This document shows, in pieces, positions 11,994 to 49,191 of a stretch of 64,000 nt of DNA; within the stretch, counting starts at the first letter, position 1; every line of letters begins with the position of its first letter. The DNA lies in NCBI GenBank assembly GCA_947458545.1, contig CANGYH010000001.1, positions 248,001-312,000 of the forward strand, read 5' to 3'. Below the pieces are notes generated by a model. The model was given only the letters and a program-made list of their open reading frames with translations. It was not told where the DNA came from and made no database searches. Both the position numbers and the translations under genes were made by a program. This stretch comes from Cytophagaceae bacterium. Lineage in GTDB: Bacteria > Bacteroidota > Bacteroidia > Cytophagales > Flexibacteraceae.

Positions 11994-12021
11994 CCGTTTG
12001 TCGGAAATTTCCGACAAACGG
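11994..12021. promoter_or_regulatory. Perfect 28-bp palindrome upstream of parA (candidate operator or parS-like site)
   Basis: Two 14-bp arms, CCGTTTGTCGGAAA and its exact reverse complement, with no spacer. It lies 35 bp before the parA start codon, between the divergent parA and hydrolase genes. The core TGTCGGAA ... TTCCGACA recurs inside the downstream parB-like gene and in the cobalamin riboswitch. The size and symmetry suit a dimeric DNA-binding protein, most simply the ParB-like protein encoded next door. There is no T-run, so it is not a terminator. Function is inferred. Confidence 0.7.
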
Positions 12022-12056: not shown

Positions 12057-12797
12057 ATGACTCGGACTGTCTCTATAACCAACAACAAAGGCGGCACATC
12101 AAAGACGACAACGGCCCTAAACCTGGGGGCGGCGCTCAAGCGCGCAGGCCACAGGGTGCTGGCCATTGACTTGGATGCGCAATGCAACCTTACCCTAGGG
12201 GCAGGGCATATGCCAGGTAACGCCCACGCGGGTACTTTTCTGCTTGGAGAGACTTCTTTTGAAGAGACCCTTGTCGAGACAGAGAGCTTCGATTTAATCC
12301 CCAGCCATAAGACATTGTTGAGTTATGAGTATCGGATAAACACAGAGCCTGATTCGGCCTTCTTTCTTAAAGATTATTTATTTAATAAGCAATATGACTT
12401 TATCGTCATTGATTGCCCGCCAAGTTTGGGTGCCTTAACGGTAAATGCATTGGTAGCATCTGATTTTTACCTTATCCCTATGCAGGGTGAGAATTTTGCC
12501 TACGTCGGCCTCAATGAAATCCTGCAGCTTACGGCCAAAATTAAAAAGCGCCTCAATCCAGACCTAGAGCTGGCGGGGATTCTGCTGAGCAAGTTTGATC
12601 ATCGTACTAAGTTTGCCCAGATGGTTTATGCCAAGTTGCAGCAGAACACCAATTTGAAGTTGCTCAAAAGCCATATTCGCCAAGATGTAACCTTGATGGA
12701 GTGTGCTGCATTCGGTAAAAATATTTTCGCCTATGCTCCCGAGAGCCGCGGGGCTAAAGACTTTGATGCCCTCTGCCAAGAAATTTTAGCACTGTAA
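12057..12797 (+). CDS. parA: ParA-family partition ATPase
   Basis: A 246-residue deviant-Walker ATPase of the ParA/Soj group, which binds DNA non-specifically in its ATP form and moves ParB-bound cargo. Seen: ITNNKGGTSKTTTALNLG with the signature lysine of the deviant Walker A loop, the LAIDLDAQCNLTLG switch I region, and Walker B YDFIVIDCPPSLG. No N-terminal helix-turn-helix, so it is a short (Soj/type Ib-like) ParA. Three bases separate its stop from the ParB-like gene, which indicates an operon. The stretch around 12350-12420 is visibly more AT-rich than the flanking genes, hinting at acquisition from elsewhere, though this is weak. The main chromosomal parAB pair is not in this window, so this may be a second system. 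Confidence 0.88.
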   Translation: MTRTVSITNNKGGTSKTTTALNLGAALKRAGHRVLAIDLDAQCNLTLGAGHMPGNAHAGTFLLGETSFEETLVETESFDLIPSHKTLLSYEYRINTEPDSAFFLKDYLFNKQYDFIVIDCPPSLGALTVNALVASDFYLIPMQGENFAYVGLNEILQLTAKIKKRLNPDLELAGILLSKFDHRTKFAQMVYAKLQQNTNLKLLKSHIRQDVTLMECAAFGKNIFAYAPESRGAKDFDALCQEILAL

Positions 12798-12800
12798 ACC

Positions 12801-13607
12801 ATGAGTATTGCCCAGAAGCCCATCAAGCGGCAAAAAGCTTTCTCGCCAGATCTACTCCGCGACATCCACGCAGAGCCTACCTTAAAGCCTATTGCCATTG
12901 AGGACATGGACGACGAGGATGCTGCAGGCACCAGGTCGTTGGCTCCGATGTCTACCCACGAGCAACGCCGGTTTGAGGAGTGCGAGCAGATCATCACAGA
13001 AGGCTTACACACCTTTATGGAGGTGGGCCAAGCCTTGGCTGAAATTCGAAACAGAAGGCTCTATCGAGAGGATTTCAAAACCTTTGAAGCCTACGCGCAG
13101 CAGCGCTGGGGCATAAAGCGGCAGCGAGCTTACGAGCTCATGGGTGCCAGCGAGGTCGCTCGCAATTTGTCGGAATTTTCCGACATACTCCCATCCAAAG
13201 AGAGCCATGCTGCATCTTTACTCAAATTAAGCCCTGAGGATCAACGAGCTGCTTGGGCAGAGATTATCGCCGAAGCAGGCGACAATGTGCATAGCCTCAC
13301 AGCCTCGCGCATCAAAAAGAAGGTGGCTGAACGCCTCAAGGCCACAAATCATGAGGATGAAGAGGGCAACGGTCAGGCTATGCCACAACCTGCCGCAGAC
13401 GAAATTGCCAAACCGCTGGCCAAGGCCATGAAAAGGCAACCCGAGCAGCTATTCATAACCATTACGGGCCCGTGGCTGATCAAAAACAACCTCGAGCATA
13501 TCTGGCGAGAACTGCGCGGCGTATCCAGGAAGATTGACAATAACTTCTCAGACGTCATCACCCTGGGCGAGGCATTTGAGATAGGCTTACTACGCCCCAG
13601 CCGTTAA
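12801..13607 (+). CDS. Atypical ParB-like DNA-binding protein (partner of ParA)
   Basis: A 268-residue protein directly downstream of parA. It lacks the N-terminal ParB CTPase/nuclease-like domain (no GERRxRA motif). The centre (about residues 55-145) is a helical module (EQRRFEECEQIITEGLHTF, EVGQALAEIRNRRLY, FEAYAQQRWGIKRQRAYELM) of the kind found in plasmid- and phage-encoded ParB-like or replication-associated proteins, where the W-G-x-x-R-x-x-A-Y segment looks like a helix-turn-helix. Residues about 165-215 are charged and linker-like, followed by a C-terminal domain (about 218-268). The gene itself contains one copy of the palindrome found upstream of parA. By position it should be the DNA-binding adaptor or repressor of the ParA system. 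Exact family not recognised with certainty. Confidence 0.6.
   Translation: MSIAQKPIKRQKAFSPDLLRDIHAEPTLKPIAIEDMDDEDAAGTRSLAPMSTHEQRRFEECEQIITEGLHTFMEVGQALAEIRNRRLYREDFKTFEAYAQQRWGIKRQRAYELMGASEVARNLSEFSDILPSKESHAASLLKLSPEDQRAAWAEIIAEAGDNVHSLTASRIKKKVAERLKATNHEDEEGNGQAMPQPAADEIAKPLAKAMKRQPEQLFITITGPWLIKNNLEHIWRELRGVSRKIDNNFSDVITLGEAFEIGLLRPSR
13168..13185. repeat. Palindrome copy inside the parB-like gene (TGTCGGAA-TT-TTCCGACA)
   Basis: 8-bp perfect arms with a 2-bp centre, encoding L-S-E-F-S-D in the parB-like reading frame. Its minus-strand sequence is identical over 18 bp to the copy at 42972-42989 and shares both arms with the parA upstream palindrome. Confidence 0.75.
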
Positions 13608-42819: not shown

Positions 42820-42827
42820 TATATTTG
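42820..42827 (+). promoter_or_regulatory. Promoter -7 element of the cobalamin operon
   Basis: TATATTTG fits the Bacteroidota -7 consensus and sits 10-15 bp upstream of the aptamer. A TTTC about 16 bp upstream could be a weak -33. The mRNA would start directly before the riboswitch. Confidence 0.6.
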
Positions 42828-42837
42828 TGCCCGAAAC

Positions 42838-43045
42838 CGTTTGGTAGCTGAGCCTTTACAGTCTCAGCTTTAAAAGGGAACCCCGTGCAAGACGGGGGCT
42901 GTACCCGCAACTGTGAGCTTCTCAGTGCCTCTATGGCTCTGAAAATAGGCTGCCCAATTAGGCCACTGCCATGTCGGAAAATTCCGACAAAAGGTGGGAA
43001 GGCCGGGCGCCAAGCCTGAAGCAAGCCAGGAGACCTGCCAACGCG
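42838..43045 (+). promoter_or_regulatory. Cobalamin riboswitch
   Basis: The conserved cobalamin aptamer is readable: AAAAGGGAACCCCGTGCAAG with the ACGGGGGCTGTACCCGCAACTGTGA core, GCCACTGCC, GGTGGGAAGGCCGGG, and the B12 box GCCAGGAGACCTGCC near 43026. It lies in the only long non-coding stretch of the window (42788-43206) and heads an operon with a TonB receptor and a BtuG-like protein. On cobalamin binding it should reduce expression. The variable stem between GCCACTG and GGGAAGG is formed by the TGTCGGAA/TTCCGACA palindrome. After the aptamer CCTGGCTT (43057-43064) can pair with AAGCCAGG of the B12 box, a possible expression platform. Confidence 0.93.
42972..42989. repeat. Palindrome copy within the riboswitch variable stem (TGTCGGAA-AA-TTCCGACA)
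   Basis: 8-bp arms around AA. It is the exact reverse complement of the copy in the parB-like gene, and matches the core arms of the parA upstream palindrome. In RNA it forms the peripheral stem between the GCCACTG and GGGAAGG elements of the riboswitch. Confidence 0.75.
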
Positions 43046-43206
43046 TTGTCTTTCCACCTGGCTTCGGGAATAAAGCTAACGGTTGGCCCATACATGCCGG
43101 ACATTCTGCTCCGTTGAGCAAGGATGGTTCATATACTTGCTCGCAGAGCAAACCGGTGTTATTGGCTATCTGTCTTTACCGGGGTCTCATCTAGGCTTTC
43201 TCTAGA

Positions 43207-44505
43207 ATGACTCGACAGATTTTTAAAACACTTGCTTCTTTAGCATTTTGTGCCGCCACTTTTAGCGCGGTGCTTACTCCACGCGTATTTGCCCAAAGCA
43301 GTAGGCTCGTCGTTGTAAACGGCGGTAGATTTGAGTTTGCACCTCCATTTAGGGATTTCGTAAGCGTCGGATACATCGATACGCAAGCCGGTGCATTCGT
43401 TAAGGCTGACTCGATCCTAGGCCAGTCAGTTACAGACGGGATAACCGTAAACGATACCCTGTATTTAGCCACAGACATAGGCGTCCGTGCCTACAGCCTC
43501 CCAACGTTCTCTATTATTGGCACGTCTCCCTTTTTGTCTGGCATCAGAAAGCTGGCCAAAGTAGGCAATAAACTCTGGGCCACCCGCGGATTTGGCACCC
43601 CTGCCGGCGGCTCATATCTGCTTGCCCTGGATCCAAACCGCCTCACCGTGACCGATTCTGTTGGAGGCTTTCCCTCCGACCTCGAGCATTTGGTTTCAGG
43701 CGGCCAGGGCACCCTTTTTGTCGGCAATCCCGGCTCTTTTTTATCCGATACCGGTGCCATCTTTCGCGTAGATACCAGGTCTTTGCGCATCACCGCTGTA
43801 TATAGGCTGGGTACGCTAGGCAAGGGCATAGGCAAGCTAGGCTTTGCCAATGGTCGGCTTACGGCCATTGCCTCGCGCGGATTTGGTGCTCCAAGGGGTG
43901 CCTTTGTAACGATAGCCTCAGCCTTGGGTATGCCGGCGATTCAGCCATTATCATTTGCCGTCGGAGGGGTGGTAAGTTACCGCCAAGGCTTATTCATAGG
44001 CCAGCTAGACAGCCTCGGCCTTGGGGTGGCCAACGGCGATTTTTCGGGCTTGCGTGCCCAGCCTCGCGTGCCCAATGCCTCGGCAGCCGTAGAGGTTGAT
44101 ACTTTAGCTAACCGCGCTTGGATCACCACCGCAGACTTTGCCAGCAACGGCCAGGCACTCGCGTTTAACCTTTTTACCGGCCAGCCAGAAGCAACATACC
44201 GCGTTGGCATATCGCCAGAAGTGATTCTGCACTGGCGTGCAGCCCAGCTGACATCCACTCTCCAGGCTGGCCTCAGCCTGCACCCCACACTGTATCCCAA
44301 TCCTGCGCAAGAGGCAATCTATCTGGCTCAGTTTTTAGCCCAAGGCTACGACAACTTTGCCGTATACGACGCCCAGGGCAGAGAACATCTTGTGCAGCAT
44401 ATTGATAGTCAAAAACTTAACACATCAGATCTGGCACCTGGAGTGTATACGCTGGTCGCCAAAGGGCCTAATGGTATTATAGCCACCAGGTTCATGAAAA
44501 ACTAG
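43207..44505 (+). CDS. Secreted beta-propeller protein with T9SS C-terminal sorting domain
   Basis: A 432-residue exported protein, first gene of the cobalamin riboswitch operon. Signal peptide (about 1-29, RVFAQ), a repetitive beta-rich body with propeller-like blade repeats (SVGYIDTQAGAFVKADSIL, NKLWATRGFGTP, LFVGNPGSFLSDTGAIFRVDT, RAWITTADFASNGQALAFN), and a type A sorting domain at about 352-432 (HPTLYPNPAQEAIYL, FAVYDAQGRE, LNTSDLAPGVYTLVAKGPNG, ATRFMKN). The sorting tail predicts export by the type IX system and attachment to the surface. YncE-like propellers bind cobalamin in BtuG; whether this one does is inferred from location. No lipobox. Confidence 0.78.
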   Translation: MTRQIFKTLASLAFCAATFSAVLTPRVFAQSSRLVVVNGGRFEFAPPFRDFVSVGYIDTQAGAFVKADSILGQSVTDGITVNDTLYLATDIGVRAYSLPTFSIIGTSPFLSGIRKLAKVGNKLWATRGFGTPAGGSYLLALDPNRLTVTDSVGGFPSDLEHLVSGGQGTLFVGNPGSFLSDTGAIFRVDTRSLRITAVYRLGTLGKGIGKLGFANGRLTAIASRGFGAPRGAFVTIASALGMPAIQPLSFAVGGVVSYRQGLFIGQLDSLGLGVANGDFSGLRAQPRVPNASAAVEVDTLANRAWITTADFASNGQALAFNLFTGQPEATYRVGISPEVILHWRAAQLTSTLQAGLSLHPTLYPNPAQEAIYLAQFLAQGYDNFAVYDAQGREHLVQHIDSQKLNTSDLAPGVYTLVAKGPNGIIATRFMKN

Positions 44506-44515
44506 TTTCTTTAGT

Positions 44516-45919
44516 ATGCGCATGAGGCTGATTCTTGTTTGCATCGTTAGCTTAACCGCCCTGCCTATGGTTTGGGCCAATGGCCTTACGTTGCGAATAC
44601 AAGAACCGGCCAGCCCTCGCAAGGCCCGATGCTGGGTCACGTGGGCCAACGGATGGAACGACCTTTCTTCTGGCGGAAACCATGATGCCGTCTGGCTATT
44701 CGGCCGCGAGGCTCAGACCGGCCCCTTACGCGTGCAGAGTGCAGCCATAATTACTGGCGCAGAGCGTTTTCAGCTCAGGATAGCCTCAGACAGGCTGGGC
44801 CTTTGGTTGCTGTCTGCAGCGGGCCGCAGCTTTGAGCGAGACAGCGCGCTTGTAGAGATTGAATGGAGTACAGAGGTCAATCTCTTACGTTTATGTGCCT
44901 TAGAGATGGTTTTAATCCCTCCAGGGCCTTTTTGGGTAGGCGATAGTCTTTCCAACAACACATTGTGCCAATACGGGAGCCGTCGTCCTTTTCAAATACA
45001 TGGAGACACCGGTTTATCTCTTAACCAAGATGGAGAATTAGCCACCGGCGATGAGCCCTCAGGCCCTTTACCAAGTGGTTTTCCTATTGGTACACAAGGT
45101 TTTTTTTGCATGAAATACGAGGTAAGCCAGGCACTCTGGGCAGACTTTGTAAACGATTTGCCGGCAGAGGATAAGGCTTTACTTTATCCTGAGCTGGGCC
45201 AAAACCAGTTGCCGGCAGCGTTTACATACAAGCGGTCTCAATTAAGCGTTTCGACATCTGGCCAGGTATTGGTTCGCTATGGGGGAGCCCGTGCCATGGG
45301 CGGCCTGAGTTGGACAGATCTGCTTGCTTTCCTAGACTGGGCTTGCCTTAGGCCGCTAACAGAGACAGAGTTTGAAAAGGCATGCAGGGGACCTTTGCGT
45401 CCAATACCTAAAGAGTATGCCTGGGGTACGCCGCATGCACAAGCTCCCCTAGATAGCCTGCAATACGACGGTACATTGGCCGAAACAGAAACCGCCCCAA
45501 CCGATGCCGAGACGGGCATGGCCAATTTTGCCCGCTTTGTAGGGTTGCCTTACCTAGACGGCCCTGCACGACAGGGATTTGCCGCTAAACCAGAGCCCAA
45601 TCGCATAAATGCCGGGGCGGGCTACTATGGCTGTTTTGAGCTTAGCGGCAACGTTTGGGAGCAATGCGTACGCCTTATGATGCCCAACAGCACGTTTTCT
45701 TCTGATCCAGGAGATGGCAAACTGGCCAGCGGACGGGCCAACCAACCTGGATGGCAGGGTATCTCACCCATCGTAAGAGGCGGCGGGCATGCAAGTATTT
45801 TGGTGGATGCGCTGTCTTATCCTTACCGAGATCTGGCAGTATCAGACAGGTTTTATATCAATTATACAGGTACGCAACGCCGCAGTACCACAGGCGGACG
45901 AGGCGCAAGAGGATGGTAA
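44516..45919 (+). CDS. Secreted formylglycine-generating-enzyme-like (SUMF1/EgtB fold) protein
   Basis: A 467-residue exported protein with a signal peptide (about 1-22). The N-terminal ~120 residues are a beta-rich domain (LRIQEPASPRKARCWVTWANGWN). The rest resembles the FGE/SUMF1 fold: LIPPGPFWVGD, FFCMKYEVSQALWADFVN, CLRPLTETEFEKACRG, YAWGTPH, YYGCFELSGNVWEQCV and IVRGGGHASILVDALSYPYR. The catalytic cysteines of true FGE are not seen (the RGG motif is followed by GHAS), so it is probably non-enzymatic, as in the T9SS lipoproteins GldJ and GldK. It ends in a GR-rich tail (TGGRGARGW) and its stop overlaps the next gene (ATGGTAA). Role in B12 uptake is unproven. Confidence 0.68.
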   Translation: MRMRLILVCIVSLTALPMVWANGLTLRIQEPASPRKARCWVTWANGWNDLSSGGNHDAVWLFGREAQTGPLRVQSAAIITGAERFQLRIASDRLGLWLLSAAGRSFERDSALVEIEWSTEVNLLRLCALEMVLIPPGPFWVGDSLSNNTLCQYGSRRPFQIHGDTGLSLNQDGELATGDEPSGPLPSGFPIGTQGFFCMKYEVSQALWADFVNDLPAEDKALLYPELGQNQLPAAFTYKRSQLSVSTSGQVLVRYGGARAMGGLSWTDLLAFLDWACLRPLTETEFEKACRGPLRPIPKEYAWGTPHAQAPLDSLQYDGTLAETETAPTDAETGMANFARFVGLPYLDGPARQGFAAKPEPNRINAGAGYYGCFELSGNVWEQCVRLMMPNSTFSSDPGDGKLASGRANQPGWQGISPIVRGGGHASILVDALSYPYRDLAVSDRFYINYTGTQRRSTTGGRGARGW

Positions 45920-46233
45920 AGATTTTCGTAATCCTAATTGGTTGGTTGGTTAGCCCTTCTATTTGCTTCGGGCAAGGCAGATTTTCTGGCGGCCCAGGCA
46001 GAGGCGATGCATCAGTAGTTGTGCAAATGCAAAGCGCAGGCGGAGCACTGGCTTATCCTAACCCGGCCAAATGCGGCCAAGTAGTACAACTCTCGGGCAA
46101 TGCCACGACCTTTGACGTCCTTAGTATTAATGGGTATATACTAATTACCAATACCGCAACTTATTTAGCTAATTCGCCTGGTATTTATATACTAAAAACA
46201 TCAGACAAATGGCTAAAACTGGTTGTATACTAG
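45913..46233 (+). CDS. Very small exported protein resembling a bare T9SS sorting domain
   Basis: A 106-residue protein: signal peptide (about 1-21, LIGWLVSPSICFGQG), a short Gly-rich linker (GRFSGGPGRGDASVVVQMQ), then a segment like a T9SS C-terminal domain (LAYPNPAKCGQVVQLSG, FDVLSINGYI, LANSPGIYILKTSDKWLKLVVY). It carries no other domain. The start ATG 45913 overlaps the upstream stop and the end overlaps the TonB receptor start by 25 bp, so it is embedded in the operon. It could be a small surface protein, an accessory for exporting the adjacent FGE-like protein, or a remnant. I recognise no named family. Confidence 0.65.
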   Translation: MVKIFVILIGWLVSPSICFGQGRFSGGPGRGDASVVVQMQSAGGALAYPNPAKCGQVVQLSGNATTFDVLSINGYILITNTATYLANSPGIYILKTSDKWLKLVVY

Positions 46234-48113
46234 TATTGCTACTAGCAATATACTTGCTAACTAATTTAGTATATGGCCAGCCTGCGCCTAAAGATACTTT
46301 AAGTCTTGATGGGGTGGTTATTTCTGCACCACAGGTTAGGCTCAGACTCAATACGCAGCCTGGGCAGTTGCTCGATTGGGCAGTGCAGCCTTTGTCGGAA
46401 ATTTCTTACAAATCTTATGGCGCCGCTGGGGTTGGCAGTATATCCTTCAGGGGCTTGCCCGCCAACCAGACCGCCCTTTTGTGGAGAGGGCTCTCGCTAG
46501 GTTCTCCACTGCTTGGGCAGGTAGATATGGGCCAGCTAACCATTACCGAAGCATGGGCGCCTCAACTGGCAGACAAACCATCGCTGGTACACGCAGGCAA
46601 TGCTCCAAGCTCGGTTTGGGTAGGGCAACCACTCTACACTCCTGATAGTAGCAGGCAGCCTCGTCTGCGGGCTCAAGCCCATTTTACAGCAGGGCTTTAC
46701 GGTTTACGTGTAATCGAAGGAGCTGTAACTGGCCAGGCCAATCGTTGGCGATTTTCTGTACGCATGCTAACGTCGAGGGCCCAAAACGACTTTCGCATTT
46801 ATCGGCCGGCTGGGGCTGATCCATTGCTTCCGCGTTTTCAGGGGCATGCCATGCAATCAAGTTTACAGGCCGAGGGTGTGGCTGCTTATCAATCTAGGCG
46901 GCAGAATTACCTAGTAGAAATGTCGGCCCTCACCAATGCGGCCCAGCGACAACTGCCTCCTCCTATTACAAGGTACAGCTCTGCTCAGCAACTATTAGGA
47001 CAAACCTTGGCTTTTGTAATCAACCAACGGTTTACGCCTAAAGCATCGCGTTGGGCCTATAAGCTTTCCGCAGGCGGATTGCTGGATCAGGGCAGATACA
47101 TAGACGATGCAGGCGTATCTAATGTCTTTACAGCCAGGCAATTGCAAGCACTCGGCCGGCTAACCAACTCCGCTGCAGCAGGCTTTGGCAACCTAACTTT
47201 TGCGTTAGAGCACACCCATGCTGTAGGCATTGCACCAAGCTATGGGCAGCACCAAGCTTTACAGGTACATGCGTTCCAGGCGGGGTGTGGCATTGCGCGA
47301 GGCCGGCTAAGGCTAGACCCAACGGCCAACTATTTTATAGTGCAAGGGGCCTCCCATGCGGCAATGGGGCTAGATATATCGTTTGGAAATGAAACCACGG
47401 CCGAGCCGGCCGTGCGTTTAACGACCAAGCCAATTTTCAGGGCTCCCACCTTAAACGACTTGTACTACCCCAGCCTAGGCAACCCCAGCTTGCGCTACGA
47501 GCAAGGCCGACTTTACGAGCTGGCATTGTCTTTGGCTACGCGCTCGGCCGCCAAGTCTTTATACAAGGCCGAAATCATACCATTTATATATGATTATCAG
47601 CGGTTTATCTCATGGCAGCCCCAAGGAAACCTTTGGACGCCCTTATCCTTGTCAGATGCACGCGTTTCTGGAATTACCGGAAAAGCCACAATTACCACCA
47701 AGCCAGGCTTATGGCAATTAGACTGGGTAAACCAAGCCACCATAAGCCAGGGTGGGCTAGGAGGGGCTTGGTTCCAGCTATCGGCCCGGCCCGCAGCGTT
47801 TCTATACACGCCTGCGCTCAGGCTTACGTCTACCTTCGTAGCCAAACGGAACAACGATATTATCTCCTTCCAAACAGCATACACAGGCCAACGCCCAATT
47901 GTAACAGATCTAAGCGCACACCCAATGCCGGGATTTCTGATCTACACCTTAGCTTTAGCCCGGTCTGAGATTGCTCTGTGGGCAGGAAAGGCTTCTGTAG
48001 CTGTGCAGGTGCACGTAGCCTCTAGGTCAGATTATGCCTGGGTACCAAATTATGCTGCTCCTCGCTGGTGGGGCCAATTAAGCTTATCTTATGGTCTGGC
48101 AACGCGTTCGTAG
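46209..48113 (+). CDS. TonB-dependent receptor (putative cobalamin/BtuB-like)
   Basis: Outer-membrane receptor of 634 residues under the cobalamin riboswitch, so cobalamin or a corrinoid is the likely substrate. Signal peptide (about 1-24, LVYGQ), a plug domain (about 30-140, DGVVISAPQVRL, LSEISYKSYGAAGVGSISFRGLPANQTALLWRGL) and a large barrel (strand pairs to the C-terminus, WWGQLSLSYGLATRS). No N-terminal CarbopepD_reg domain as in SusC types. A 22-bp stretch (46391-46412) near the plug start resembles the parA palindrome. It overlaps the preceding small gene by 25 bp and the next by 23 bp. Confidence 0.88.
   Translation: MAKTGCILVLLLAIYLLTNLVYGQPAPKDTLSLDGVVISAPQVRLRLNTQPGQLLDWAVQPLSEISYKSYGAAGVGSISFRGLPANQTALLWRGLSLGSPLLGQVDMGQLTITEAWAPQLADKPSLVHAGNAPSSVWVGQPLYTPDSSRQPRLRAQAHFTAGLYGLRVIEGAVTGQANRWRFSVRMLTSRAQNDFRIYRPAGADPLLPRFQGHAMQSSLQAEGVAAYQSRRQNYLVEMSALTNAAQRQLPPPITRYSSAQQLLGQTLAFVINQRFTPKASRWAYKLSAGGLLDQGRYIDDAGVSNVFTARQLQALGRLTNSAAAGFGNLTFALEHTHAVGIAPSYGQHQALQVHAFQAGCGIARGRLRLDPTANYFIVQGASHAAMGLDISFGNETTAEPAVRLTTKPIFRAPTLNDLYYPSLGNPSLRYEQGRLYELALSLATRSAAKSLYKAEIIPFIYDYQRFISWQPQGNLWTPLSLSDARVSGITGKATITTKPGLWQLDWVNQATISQGGLGGAWFQLSARPAAFLYTPALRLTSTFVAKRNNDIISFQTAYTGQRPIVTDLSAHPMPGFLIYTLALARSEIALWAGKASVAVQVHVASRSDYAWVPNYAAPRWWGQLSLSYGLATRS
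46391..46412. repeat. Degenerate copy of the parA palindrome in the TonB receptor gene
   Basis: TTTGTCGGAAATTTC followed by TTACAAA: two bases short of the 22-bp core of the perfect palindrome. It encodes L-S-E-I-S-Y, in the same reading frame as the copy in the parB-like gene, so it could be coincidental coding similarity. Confidence 0.35.
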
Positions 48114-49191
48114 TTTCATAGGCAGCTTTGGCCTATTAGCTGCCTTGTTGTGTGCAGCTCCTGCTTGCAAACGCGAGGCGCCCGTAGGAGAACCTACGCC
48201 TGTGGCCTATACCCAGGGAGCATACGTTCTATGCGAGGGCAATTATGGCTGGGGCCAAGGCACCATAGAGTATTTGGATACCAGCATGCCTGGTGGCCAA
48301 ACGGAAGATGCCTACCTACTGGCCAATGGCTTTGCAGCCGGCAATGTTGTGCAGAGCATGGCAACTTCTGGCGATTCTGCCTATTTAGTCGTCAACAACA
48401 GCAATAAGGTTGAATTGATAGAGAAGCGCACCCTTAAGCGCCTCCGTGCCTACACACAACTTGTATCGCCCAGATTCGCCCTCCCCGTTGGGCCAGACCT
48501 TTGGGTTACCGATCTTTATGCAGGCAGGATTACCGTTTTAGACCGCGCAACGCTGGCGCTTAAGCGTACCATCAAAGCACCGGGGTGGACGGAACAATTG
48601 GTCTATGCCCAAAACAGGGTTTATGTGGCCAACCGCAGACAAACAACCCAAGCCGCTGGCGGAATAAACGAGCAGGTGCTCGTGTGCGATCCTACAACCT
48701 ATTCTATCGTCGATAGCATCAAATTTTCGGGCGGGCGTGGATGCCAAGACTTGGTCTGGATGCCGCAAGACGGTAAACTATACACCCTGTTAGAGCATGA
48801 CAGTGCCCTGCGCGGGCCCGCCCTTGCGTCCATAACACTGGCTGATAAATCACTGCATAAATGGCCAACCGTGGTTCGCAACCGCCAACCCATCAGGTTA
48901 CATGCTGCCGCGGGAGGTTTGTTATGGCTCCAAGGAGACAGGGTATGCTATTGGACGCTGACGGACGGCATTCACTCTGTGCAGCCCTTGGGTGCAGGCG
49001 CTAACCTTACCGCCATCGGCCCCTTGCCATCTCATGGTTCCAAGAGAGGGCGCTTGTGGGTTGCCAATGCGCAAGACTATGTCTCGCGTGCATCTTTGGC
49101 TTTAGTAGAGATTGACTGGGCCACACTATCGATAAATCAGATAAAAAATACCAGAACTGGTATTATTCCTGCTCAGATTGTAATATTTTAA
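48091..49191 (+). CDS. BtuG-like YncE/DUF5074-type beta-propeller lipoprotein
   Basis: A 366-residue protein with a signal sequence ending in a probable lipoprotein cysteine (LLCAAPACKREAPV) and a seven-bladed propeller-like body (NGFAAGNVVQSMATSGDSAYLVVNNSNKVELIEKRT, PVGPDLWVTDLYAGRITVLDRATLALKRTI, YVANRRQ, GGRGCQDLVWMPQDGKLYTLLEHD). In gut Bacteroides, BtuG is a surface-exposed propeller lipoprotein that binds cobalamin with very high affinity and hands it to BtuB. The same arrangement, TonB receptor followed by this lipoprotein under a B12 riboswitch, makes BtuG-like function likely. It overlaps the receptor gene by 23 bp. Confidence 0.75.
   Translation: MVWQRVRSFIGSFGLLAALLCAAPACKREAPVGEPTPVAYTQGAYVLCEGNYGWGQGTIEYLDTSMPGGQTEDAYLLANGFAAGNVVQSMATSGDSAYLVVNNSNKVELIEKRTLKRLRAYTQLVSPRFALPVGPDLWVTDLYAGRITVLDRATLALKRTIKAPGWTEQLVYAQNRVYVANRRQTTQAAGGINEQVLVCDPTTYSIVDSIKFSGGRGCQDLVWMPQDGKLYTLLEHDSALRGPALASITLADKSLHKWPTVVRNRQPIRLHAAAGGLLWLQGDRVCYWTLTDGIHSVQPLGAGANLTAIGPLPSHGSKRGRLWVANAQDYVSRASLALVEIDWATLSINQIKNTRTGIIPAQIVIF

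Follow-up and report, generated by a model that had tools for sequence, protein, structure and literature searches.

A cobalamin riboswitch in the genome of a Cytophagaceae bacterium carries in its apical hairpin an 18-bp palindrome (TGTCGGAAAATTCCGACA) that is also found inside a ParB-like gene linked to parA. The question raised by this locus is what the same 18 bp are doing in both places. The window, by which we mean the whole stretch of 64,000 nucleotides that was analysed, was first read in an initial annotation that placed the palindrome at 42972-42989, where it is indeed found, and described it as the reverse complement of the copy about 30 kb away in the ParB-like gene at 13168-13185. 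That description is exact. The annotation offered two readings, a small dispersed palindromic element or a DNA-binding site just downstream of a promoter that adds protein-based control to the B12 operon. On sequence evidence the palindrome is very probably a protein-binding DNA site linked to the parA/parB-like pair, and protein control of the operon is a possibility. The features that are discussed below are collected in Table 1.

Table 1. Features of the window, with positions counted from its first nucleotide
Feature	Position	Strand	Basis or remark
28-bp perfect palindrome containing the exact site 11999-12016	11994..12021	.	ends 35 bp before the ParA start codon
ParA-family ATPase gene	12057..12797	+	AAA_31, 4.9e-47
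Probable centromere-binding protein P0001, 268 aa	12801..13607	+	predicted ParB/Noc-like DNA-binding domain, weak borfam_49 match
Exact site inside the P0001 gene	13168..13185	.	codons S-E-F-S-D, loop after the predicted recognition helix
TATATTTG, promoter-like	42820..42827	+	resembles TAnnTTTG
Cobalamin riboswitch aptamer (RF00174)	42825..43057	+	90.4 bits against a gathering score of 31.5
Variable tip of 27 nt, flanked by GCCACTG and GGGAAGG	42969..42995	+	fold and tips of relatives
18-bp palindromic site TGTCGGAA-AA-TTCCGACA	42972..42989	.	apical hairpin of the riboswitch
Gene for a T9SS-sorted protein, first after the riboswitch	43207..44505	+	homologue after the riboswitch in 4 same-family genomes
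BtuB-like TonB receptor of the presumed B12 operon	46209..48113	+	TIGR01779, E 6e-6, below cut-off
Degenerate 2-mismatch copy in the BtuB-like gene	46393..46410	.	doubtful

Copies of the palindrome in the window and the genome

The search pattern consisted of the arms TGTCGGAA and TTCCGACA with any two bases in between, and the whole-genome count covered 3,233,599 bases in 9 contigs with the reversed pattern as the control. Three exact copies were found in the window, starting at 11999, 13168, and 42972, and the whole genome holds no others. One precedes the ParA gene, one is within the gene that follows it, and one is part of the riboswitch, and together they span less than 31 kb of the 3.23-Mb genome; the copy before the ParA gene (11999-12016) forms the core of a longer perfect palindrome of 28 bp. 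A single copy with one mismatch is located at G000:C1:238797-238814, 9.2 kb before the window and 21 kb before the first exact copy, in the gap that separates a ROK-family kinase gene from an mdh-like gene (gene context read by eye). The copy in the BtuB-like gene, which falls in a coding stretch reading LSEIS, is doubtful because 0.76 matches per genome are expected by chance at up to two mismatches, the corresponding expectations being 0.0006 for exact matches and 0.03 at up to one mismatch. The initial annotation mentions neither the exact copy before the ParA gene nor the one-mismatch copy nor this doubtful one.

Four matches at up to three mismatches were found in the window, where shuffling gave a mean of 0.10. 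In the whole genome, five matches at up to two mismatches were found and none with the reversed control, and all five fall inside one 55.6-kb stretch, for which the chance is ~4e-7 if five points are placed at random. At three mismatches, the whole-genome count was not above background (8 vs 11). The palindrome is a clustered site rather than a dispersed element. The idea of a REP- or MITE-like repeat that landed by chance in the riboswitch and in the parB-like gene is scarcely credible and was rejected on these genome-wide counts. The tips of such riboswitches are permissive, with extracted lengths from 7 to >20 nt among relatives, but no copy with up to two mismatches lies outside the 55.6 kb; the search for other copies that the annotation had proposed thus returned a set gathered near the parA-cbp pair, with no spread through the genome. 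The same repeat would also have to account for a palindrome that occupies the same codons with fixed codon usage in eight homologous genes, and for the different palindrome that fills that place in distant homologues.

The ParA-linked protein and the site in its gene

No match was returned when P0001 was searched against Pfam, and hence none to the ParB_N/CTPase (PF02195) domain. Its match to the NCBIfam model borfam_49, 'chromosome replication/partitioning protein', is weak (E 0.025 and 15.1 bits, cut-off 60), and weak matches to the same model were found in six of seven homologues (best 2.1e-4) and in seven of ten members of the wider family (best 2.8e-6). The AlphaFold2 model of P0001 is helical and moderately confident (mean pLDDT 71.2). 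When the model was compared by VIA-align, residues 55-182 matched Noc-DNA (6y93_B) and residues 49-181 matched Spo0J-parS (4umk_C), both with a Z of 10.2. For a helical model, Z values near 10 are supportive of a ParB/Noc-like fold but not decisive, and in a Foldseek search of the same model no match reached an E of 0.001 (the best Noc row had an E of 0.021 and a TM by target of 0.74). A PDB sequence search with P0001 gave only two chance-level matches, a genome scan with it as the single query gave nothing, and no match was found among phage records.

The top structural match of the model, ahead of Noc and ParB, was Raf1, a Rubisco accumulation factor, with a Z of 12.5. It is the N-terminal domain of Raf1 that matches, and Raf1_N was found weakly by Pfam in one of ten family members.

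P0001 is matched by 79 plasmid records, but the match covers at least 80% of its length in just two, both of them Cytophagales plasmids. In these two (pEMTOL01 and Spirosoma oryzicola unnamed3), the homologues are 38.1 and 36.5% identical to P0001 in alignments that cover 96% of the query, and ParA is adjacent. The Spirosoma pair directly follows a replication initiator gene, and the Emticicia pair lies ~12 kb from the replication initiator on the same plasmid. The pair is rare in the order, with matches in 5 of 194 genomes (own genome included), most of them partial.

Nine full-length homologues were compared, that of the window, the two from plasmids, and six from named genomes. Eight of these nine Cytophagales homologues have the exact pattern TGTCGGAA-NN-TTCCGACA in their coding sequence, with place and frame unchanged: the window, the Emticicia and Spirosoma plasmids, two Telluribacter, Arsenicibacter, a Cytophagaceae MAG, and Larkinella. 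The ninth, from Bernardetiaceae, has a different palindrome, GCGCAATTGCGC, at that place, and no ParA motif was found near it. The five other named Cytophagales genomes with the exact site have one exact copy each, as does each plasmid, and the window genome is alone among these site carriers in having several. The extra sites are therefore special to the window genome. A separate observation concerns two paralogous partial homologues (L010 and L013) in G001, a genome of the same family, which carry TGTCCGCAATTGCGGACA in the gene at another place and in another peptide.

Codon usage was examined across the eight genes with the site. Among 55 invariant residues other than M and W, five use a single codon throughout, and these are the S, E, S, and D of the palindrome and one F elsewhere. 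Single-codon use is thus seen at 4/4 palindrome residues vs 1/51 others (Fisher 1.5e-5). The palindrome residues belong to a loop that joins two predicted helices and varies in length. Because the codons are fixed across eight genes in such a loop, the DNA sequence itself appears to be constrained at this place. Together with the covariation in the wider family described below, this makes the palindrome very probably the binding site of P0001 itself.

Other partition components and the position of the pair

The genome contains a canonical ParB at C1:863973 (the sole PF02195 match), a second and stronger ParA match at C1:83684, and canonical-type parS sites (TGTTNCACGTGNAACA type, 0-1 mismatch) solely at C4 86925-103587. 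Since all of these are present, the parA-cbp pair is an additional system in this genome. The palindrome was also considered as a canonical parS and rejected, as both motif and place differ from the canonical-type sites on C4. The canonical parABS set is itself unusually scattered, with parS on C4:86925-103587, ParB at 864 kb on C1, and the strongest ParA at 84 kb on C1.

The G-C skew of C1 turns from plus to minus near 200-240 kb (200001-240000), in a region of low GC close to the site cluster, which looks terminus-like. The skew covered 82% of C1; a second turn near 840 kb is unexplained, and the turn on C4 is near the canonical-type parS sites. It is possible that the site cluster lies near the replication terminus.

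An integrated plasmid with its own Rep_3-type replication gene was rejected, since no Rep_3 gene was matched in the genome. A related explanation is that the pair and its sites are the decaying remnant of an integrated plasmid, without present function. The presence of homologues on plasmids with replication genes and the rarity of the pair in the order (any match in 5 of 194 genomes, most partial) are consistent with this, but neither gene is disrupted, three of the sites are perfect, and the additional ones are found in contexts that are not those of a plasmid (the riboswitch and the gap between the ROK kinase gene and the mdh gene). The absence of a Rep_3 gene and the core genes that flank both sides also argue against a remnant, which we regard as quite unlikely.

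The riboswitch and its variable tip

The aptamer is full-length by its match to RF00174 (model 1-189, 90.4 bits, E 4.5e-21). The initial annotation had the palindrome 'precisely' filling the hairpin between GCCACTG (42962-42968) and GGGAAGG (42996-43002). The palindrome does lie in the 27-nt tip between these two elements, but it does not fill it, as flanks of CCA and AAAGGT remain on its two sides (the layout is CC-A-site-AAA-GG-T). When folded alone, the tip forms a hairpin of 7 bp, closed by an AAAU loop, above a basal stem of 5 bp.

Cobalamin riboswitches are present in 33 of the 39 genomes searched, the own genome counted. Thirty loci were read and 29 tips obtained (L029 gave none, and L030 and probably L044 were wrongly cut). 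Among relatives, the hairpin at the tip varies in both length and sequence, and the palindrome was found in 0 of the 29 tips. Four cleanly cut loci of the same family were used for comparison, in which the riboswitch precedes a homologue of the first gene of the operon (tblastn E 9e-44 to 1e-8). Their tips are 9-14 nt long and without the palindrome (GCCAAAATAAGGCT, GCCAGAATATGACT, GAATTTTCT, and GCATTTGCT; in two, the cut starts one base early or late), and a full-length P0001 homologue was not found in these genomes, G001 having two partial matches. The placement of the palindrome in a variable stem is borne out by this comparison with related riboswitches, which have a different and shorter hairpin there. 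By eye, the site seems to replace or extend the apical loop on a short basal stem, and the aptamer is presumably unharmed by the 18-bp palindrome.

It could be argued that the hairpin matches the site by coincidence, both being inverted repeats. Hairpins are palindromic anyway, so the match becomes likelier once a half-site is present, but only 0.0006 exact matches are expected in the genome, an 8-base half-site in one given hairpin has a chance of ~1 in 65,000 (our estimate, assuming equal base frequencies), and the palindrome is absent from all 29 tips obtained from 30 riboswitch loci. Coincidence is therefore very improbable. The annotation had taken the same stem in species that lack the pair as a sign of coincidence, and this was not what was found: among 58 other genomes searched, the pattern at up to one mismatch is present in one, G015 (a single 1-mismatch match), where no riboswitch match was found. 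No genome of the same genus was found among these 58.

The presumed B12 operon and its leader

The riboswitch is followed by the gene for a T9SS-sorted protein and then by that for an FGE-sulfatase-like protein, after which come the genes of a BtuB-like receptor and a DUF5074 protein, an arrangement that would fit a B12-uptake operon. It is a separate observation that T9SS-sorted and FGE-sulfatase-like proteins stand ahead of the BtuB-like receptor in this region (43207-49191), possibly as surface proteins for B12 uptake. Before the riboswitch is TATATTTG, which we take to resemble the Bacteroidota -7 promoter element TAnnTTTG; a sigma-70 promoter scan of the region before the riboswitch found no promoter.

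Protein control of the B12 operon is possible. In its strongest form, the leader site would be a dedicated operator, bound mainly to regulate the B12-uptake operon as a roadblock or repressor and adding DNA-level to RNA-level control. The site is suitably placed for this, ~145 bp downstream of the promoter-like TATATTTG and within the aptamer, but the other sites are not at B12 genes, the set clusters around parA-cbp, and one site is inside a coding sequence. We consider a dedicated operator unlikely.

The wider family and its predicted recognition helix

A scan of viral contigs gave 22 loci, and a wider alignment gave 71, or 66 without near-duplicates. An in-gene palindrome of at least 14 paired bases was found in 45 of these 66 viral-contig genes. 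The palindromes differ between distant members but are usually at the same place in the gene as that of the window. This place was defined as a test window of 78 nt lying 30-56 codons after the LYR motif, and 61 of the 66 genes had a usable reference motif. At least 16 paired bases were found in the 78-nt window in 37 of the 61 genes, whereas 200 rounds of synonymous shuffling gave a mean of 0.69 genes and a maximum of 4; elsewhere in the same genes, such palindromes were found in 2 of 959 windows. The remaining 24 of the 61 usable distant genes do not have a 16-paired palindrome in the 78-nt window. The palindrome and covariation thresholds were set after the first examples had been seen.

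The stretch that we take to be the recognition helix was assigned from the resemblance to ParB/Noc and from the ParB helix-turn-helix motif. Helix KRQRAYEL is paired with half-site TGTCGGAA, ARRTAYQ with TGTGCGC, R(G/A/P)RAYQL with TGTCTAC, AHA(Y/H)RL with TGTCTCC, and GRSRAY(E/D)L with TGTCCG(A/C)C. An exception to this neat pairing is KSHAYRV, whose partner is TGTCCCC in one gene but GGTCTCA in a second. Covariation was measured in 49 of the 83 genes entered, those dropped being near-duplicates, genes with no recognisable helix motif, or genes with fewer than 12 paired bases. Identity of the recognition helix and identity of the half-site were correlated (r 0.51; partial r 0.48 when the rest of the protein was allowed for), and 0 of 5000 permutations was as high for either value, effects of shared ancestry being not wholly removed. 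Such covariation is expected if each protein binds the palindrome of its own gene. In viral contigs (L221-L289, L076-L097) and plasmids (L216, L217, L218), the in-gene palindromes that track the predicted helix look like a readable specificity code.

A motif search for a ParA-like gene within 4 kb of the gene start found one near 0 of 22 viral and 1 of 6 plasmid loci, several of the contigs being short. The general job of the wider family may therefore be autoregulation or another role rather than partition. We lean towards the view that there is a large, mostly unnamed ParB/Noc-like family, found on plasmids, on phage-like contigs, and on some chromosomes, whose members have their own site at a fixed place in the gene and a readable recognition code, with Borrelia ParZ related. 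In the present genome, a copy of the site would have entered the hairpin of a riboswitch, where the same 18 bp would be a partition site at the DNA level and a stem of the aptamer once transcribed.

Proposed explanation

We consider it probable that the palindrome is the binding site of the ParA-linked protein encoded at 12801-13607, and that a plasmid-type partition cassette on the chromosome has gained extra sites, one of them in a permissive riboswitch hairpin. The parA-cbp pair would be a plasmid-type (type I) cassette that is now on a 1.78-Mb chromosomal contig beside purB. The in-gene site would be ancestral, because it is common to the plasmids, and the others would have been added in this lineage. 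These extra sites, all of which would have arisen within ~52 kb, are the one that precedes parA, the one that separates two metabolic genes, and the one in the riboswitch's apical loop. The riboswitch hairpin could take up the palindrome because it is already an inverted repeat in DNA and is tolerant of extension, and 18 bp would be accepted with few changes and without harm to the aptamer. Dimers of the protein would then occupy each site, and ParA-ATP would engage the bound cluster, in the manner of type I partition systems, and position this chromosomal region. The site before parA may also serve autoregulation. Binding, partition activity, and autoregulation are what we infer from the sequence.

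Comparison with known systems

In Borrelia burgdorferi, ParZ is a centromere-binding protein that is not a ParB, apparently shares an operon with parA, and acts together with ParA (PMC9712426). ParZ binds within its own gene, with a ChIP peak of ~8 kb, and coexists with canonical ParB/parS (PMC9712426). The P0001 pair is like Borrelia ParA/ParZ in its arrangement and in standing beside a canonical ParB. The family of P0001 also has the weak matches to borfam_49, a model to which the available part of the Borrelia account does not assign ParZ. In contrast to what is seen here, the available part of the Borrelia account mentions neither a palindrome nor a recognition code, nor further sites in other genes (PMC9712426). 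The window genome in addition contains a second ParA match, which is the stronger one. By analogy, Borrelia ParZ is the closest precedent for own-gene binding; ParZ apart, no family with in-gene sites was described in the open-licence PMC papers listed. If the proposed explanation is true, own-gene binding by ParZ would gain a wider setting, genes that carry their own sites would make binding specificity readable from the sequence alone, and the family would provide a natural collection of matched helix and half-site pairs.

The pair resembles canonical ParABS systems of the Spo0J/Noc type in that ParA adjoins, a ParB/Noc-like domain is predicted, and several palindromic sites are near the par genes. 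It differs in that P0001 gives no match to ParB_N and in that a separate cluster of canonical-type sites is on C4. The canonical parS is of the 16-bp TGTTTCACGTGAAACA type, whereas the P0001-linked site is the 18-bp TGTCGGAANNTTCCGACA. The type I cassettes of Cytophagales plasmids (pEMTOL01 and Spirosoma oryzicola unnamed3) also have ParA adjoining a homologous binding protein and the same in-gene palindrome. Each of these plasmids has a single site. In the window genome, where the pair is on a chromosomal contig, the in-gene site is joined by two further exact copies and a near-exact one at distances of up to 30 kb.

A natural parS in a riboswitch was not found among the open-licence PMC papers listed. 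If true, the present case would link riboswitches and DNA partition, which are usually studied apart, and would suggest as a general idea that the hairpins of RNA leaders are ready-made places for palindromic DNA sites. Like other members of RF00174, the aptamer of the window is full-length and stands before an operon of the B12-uptake type. Unlike the typical member, its apical hairpin is an 18-bp DNA site that it has in common with the parA-cbp locus, and the same 18 letters would be used once as DNA and once as RNA.
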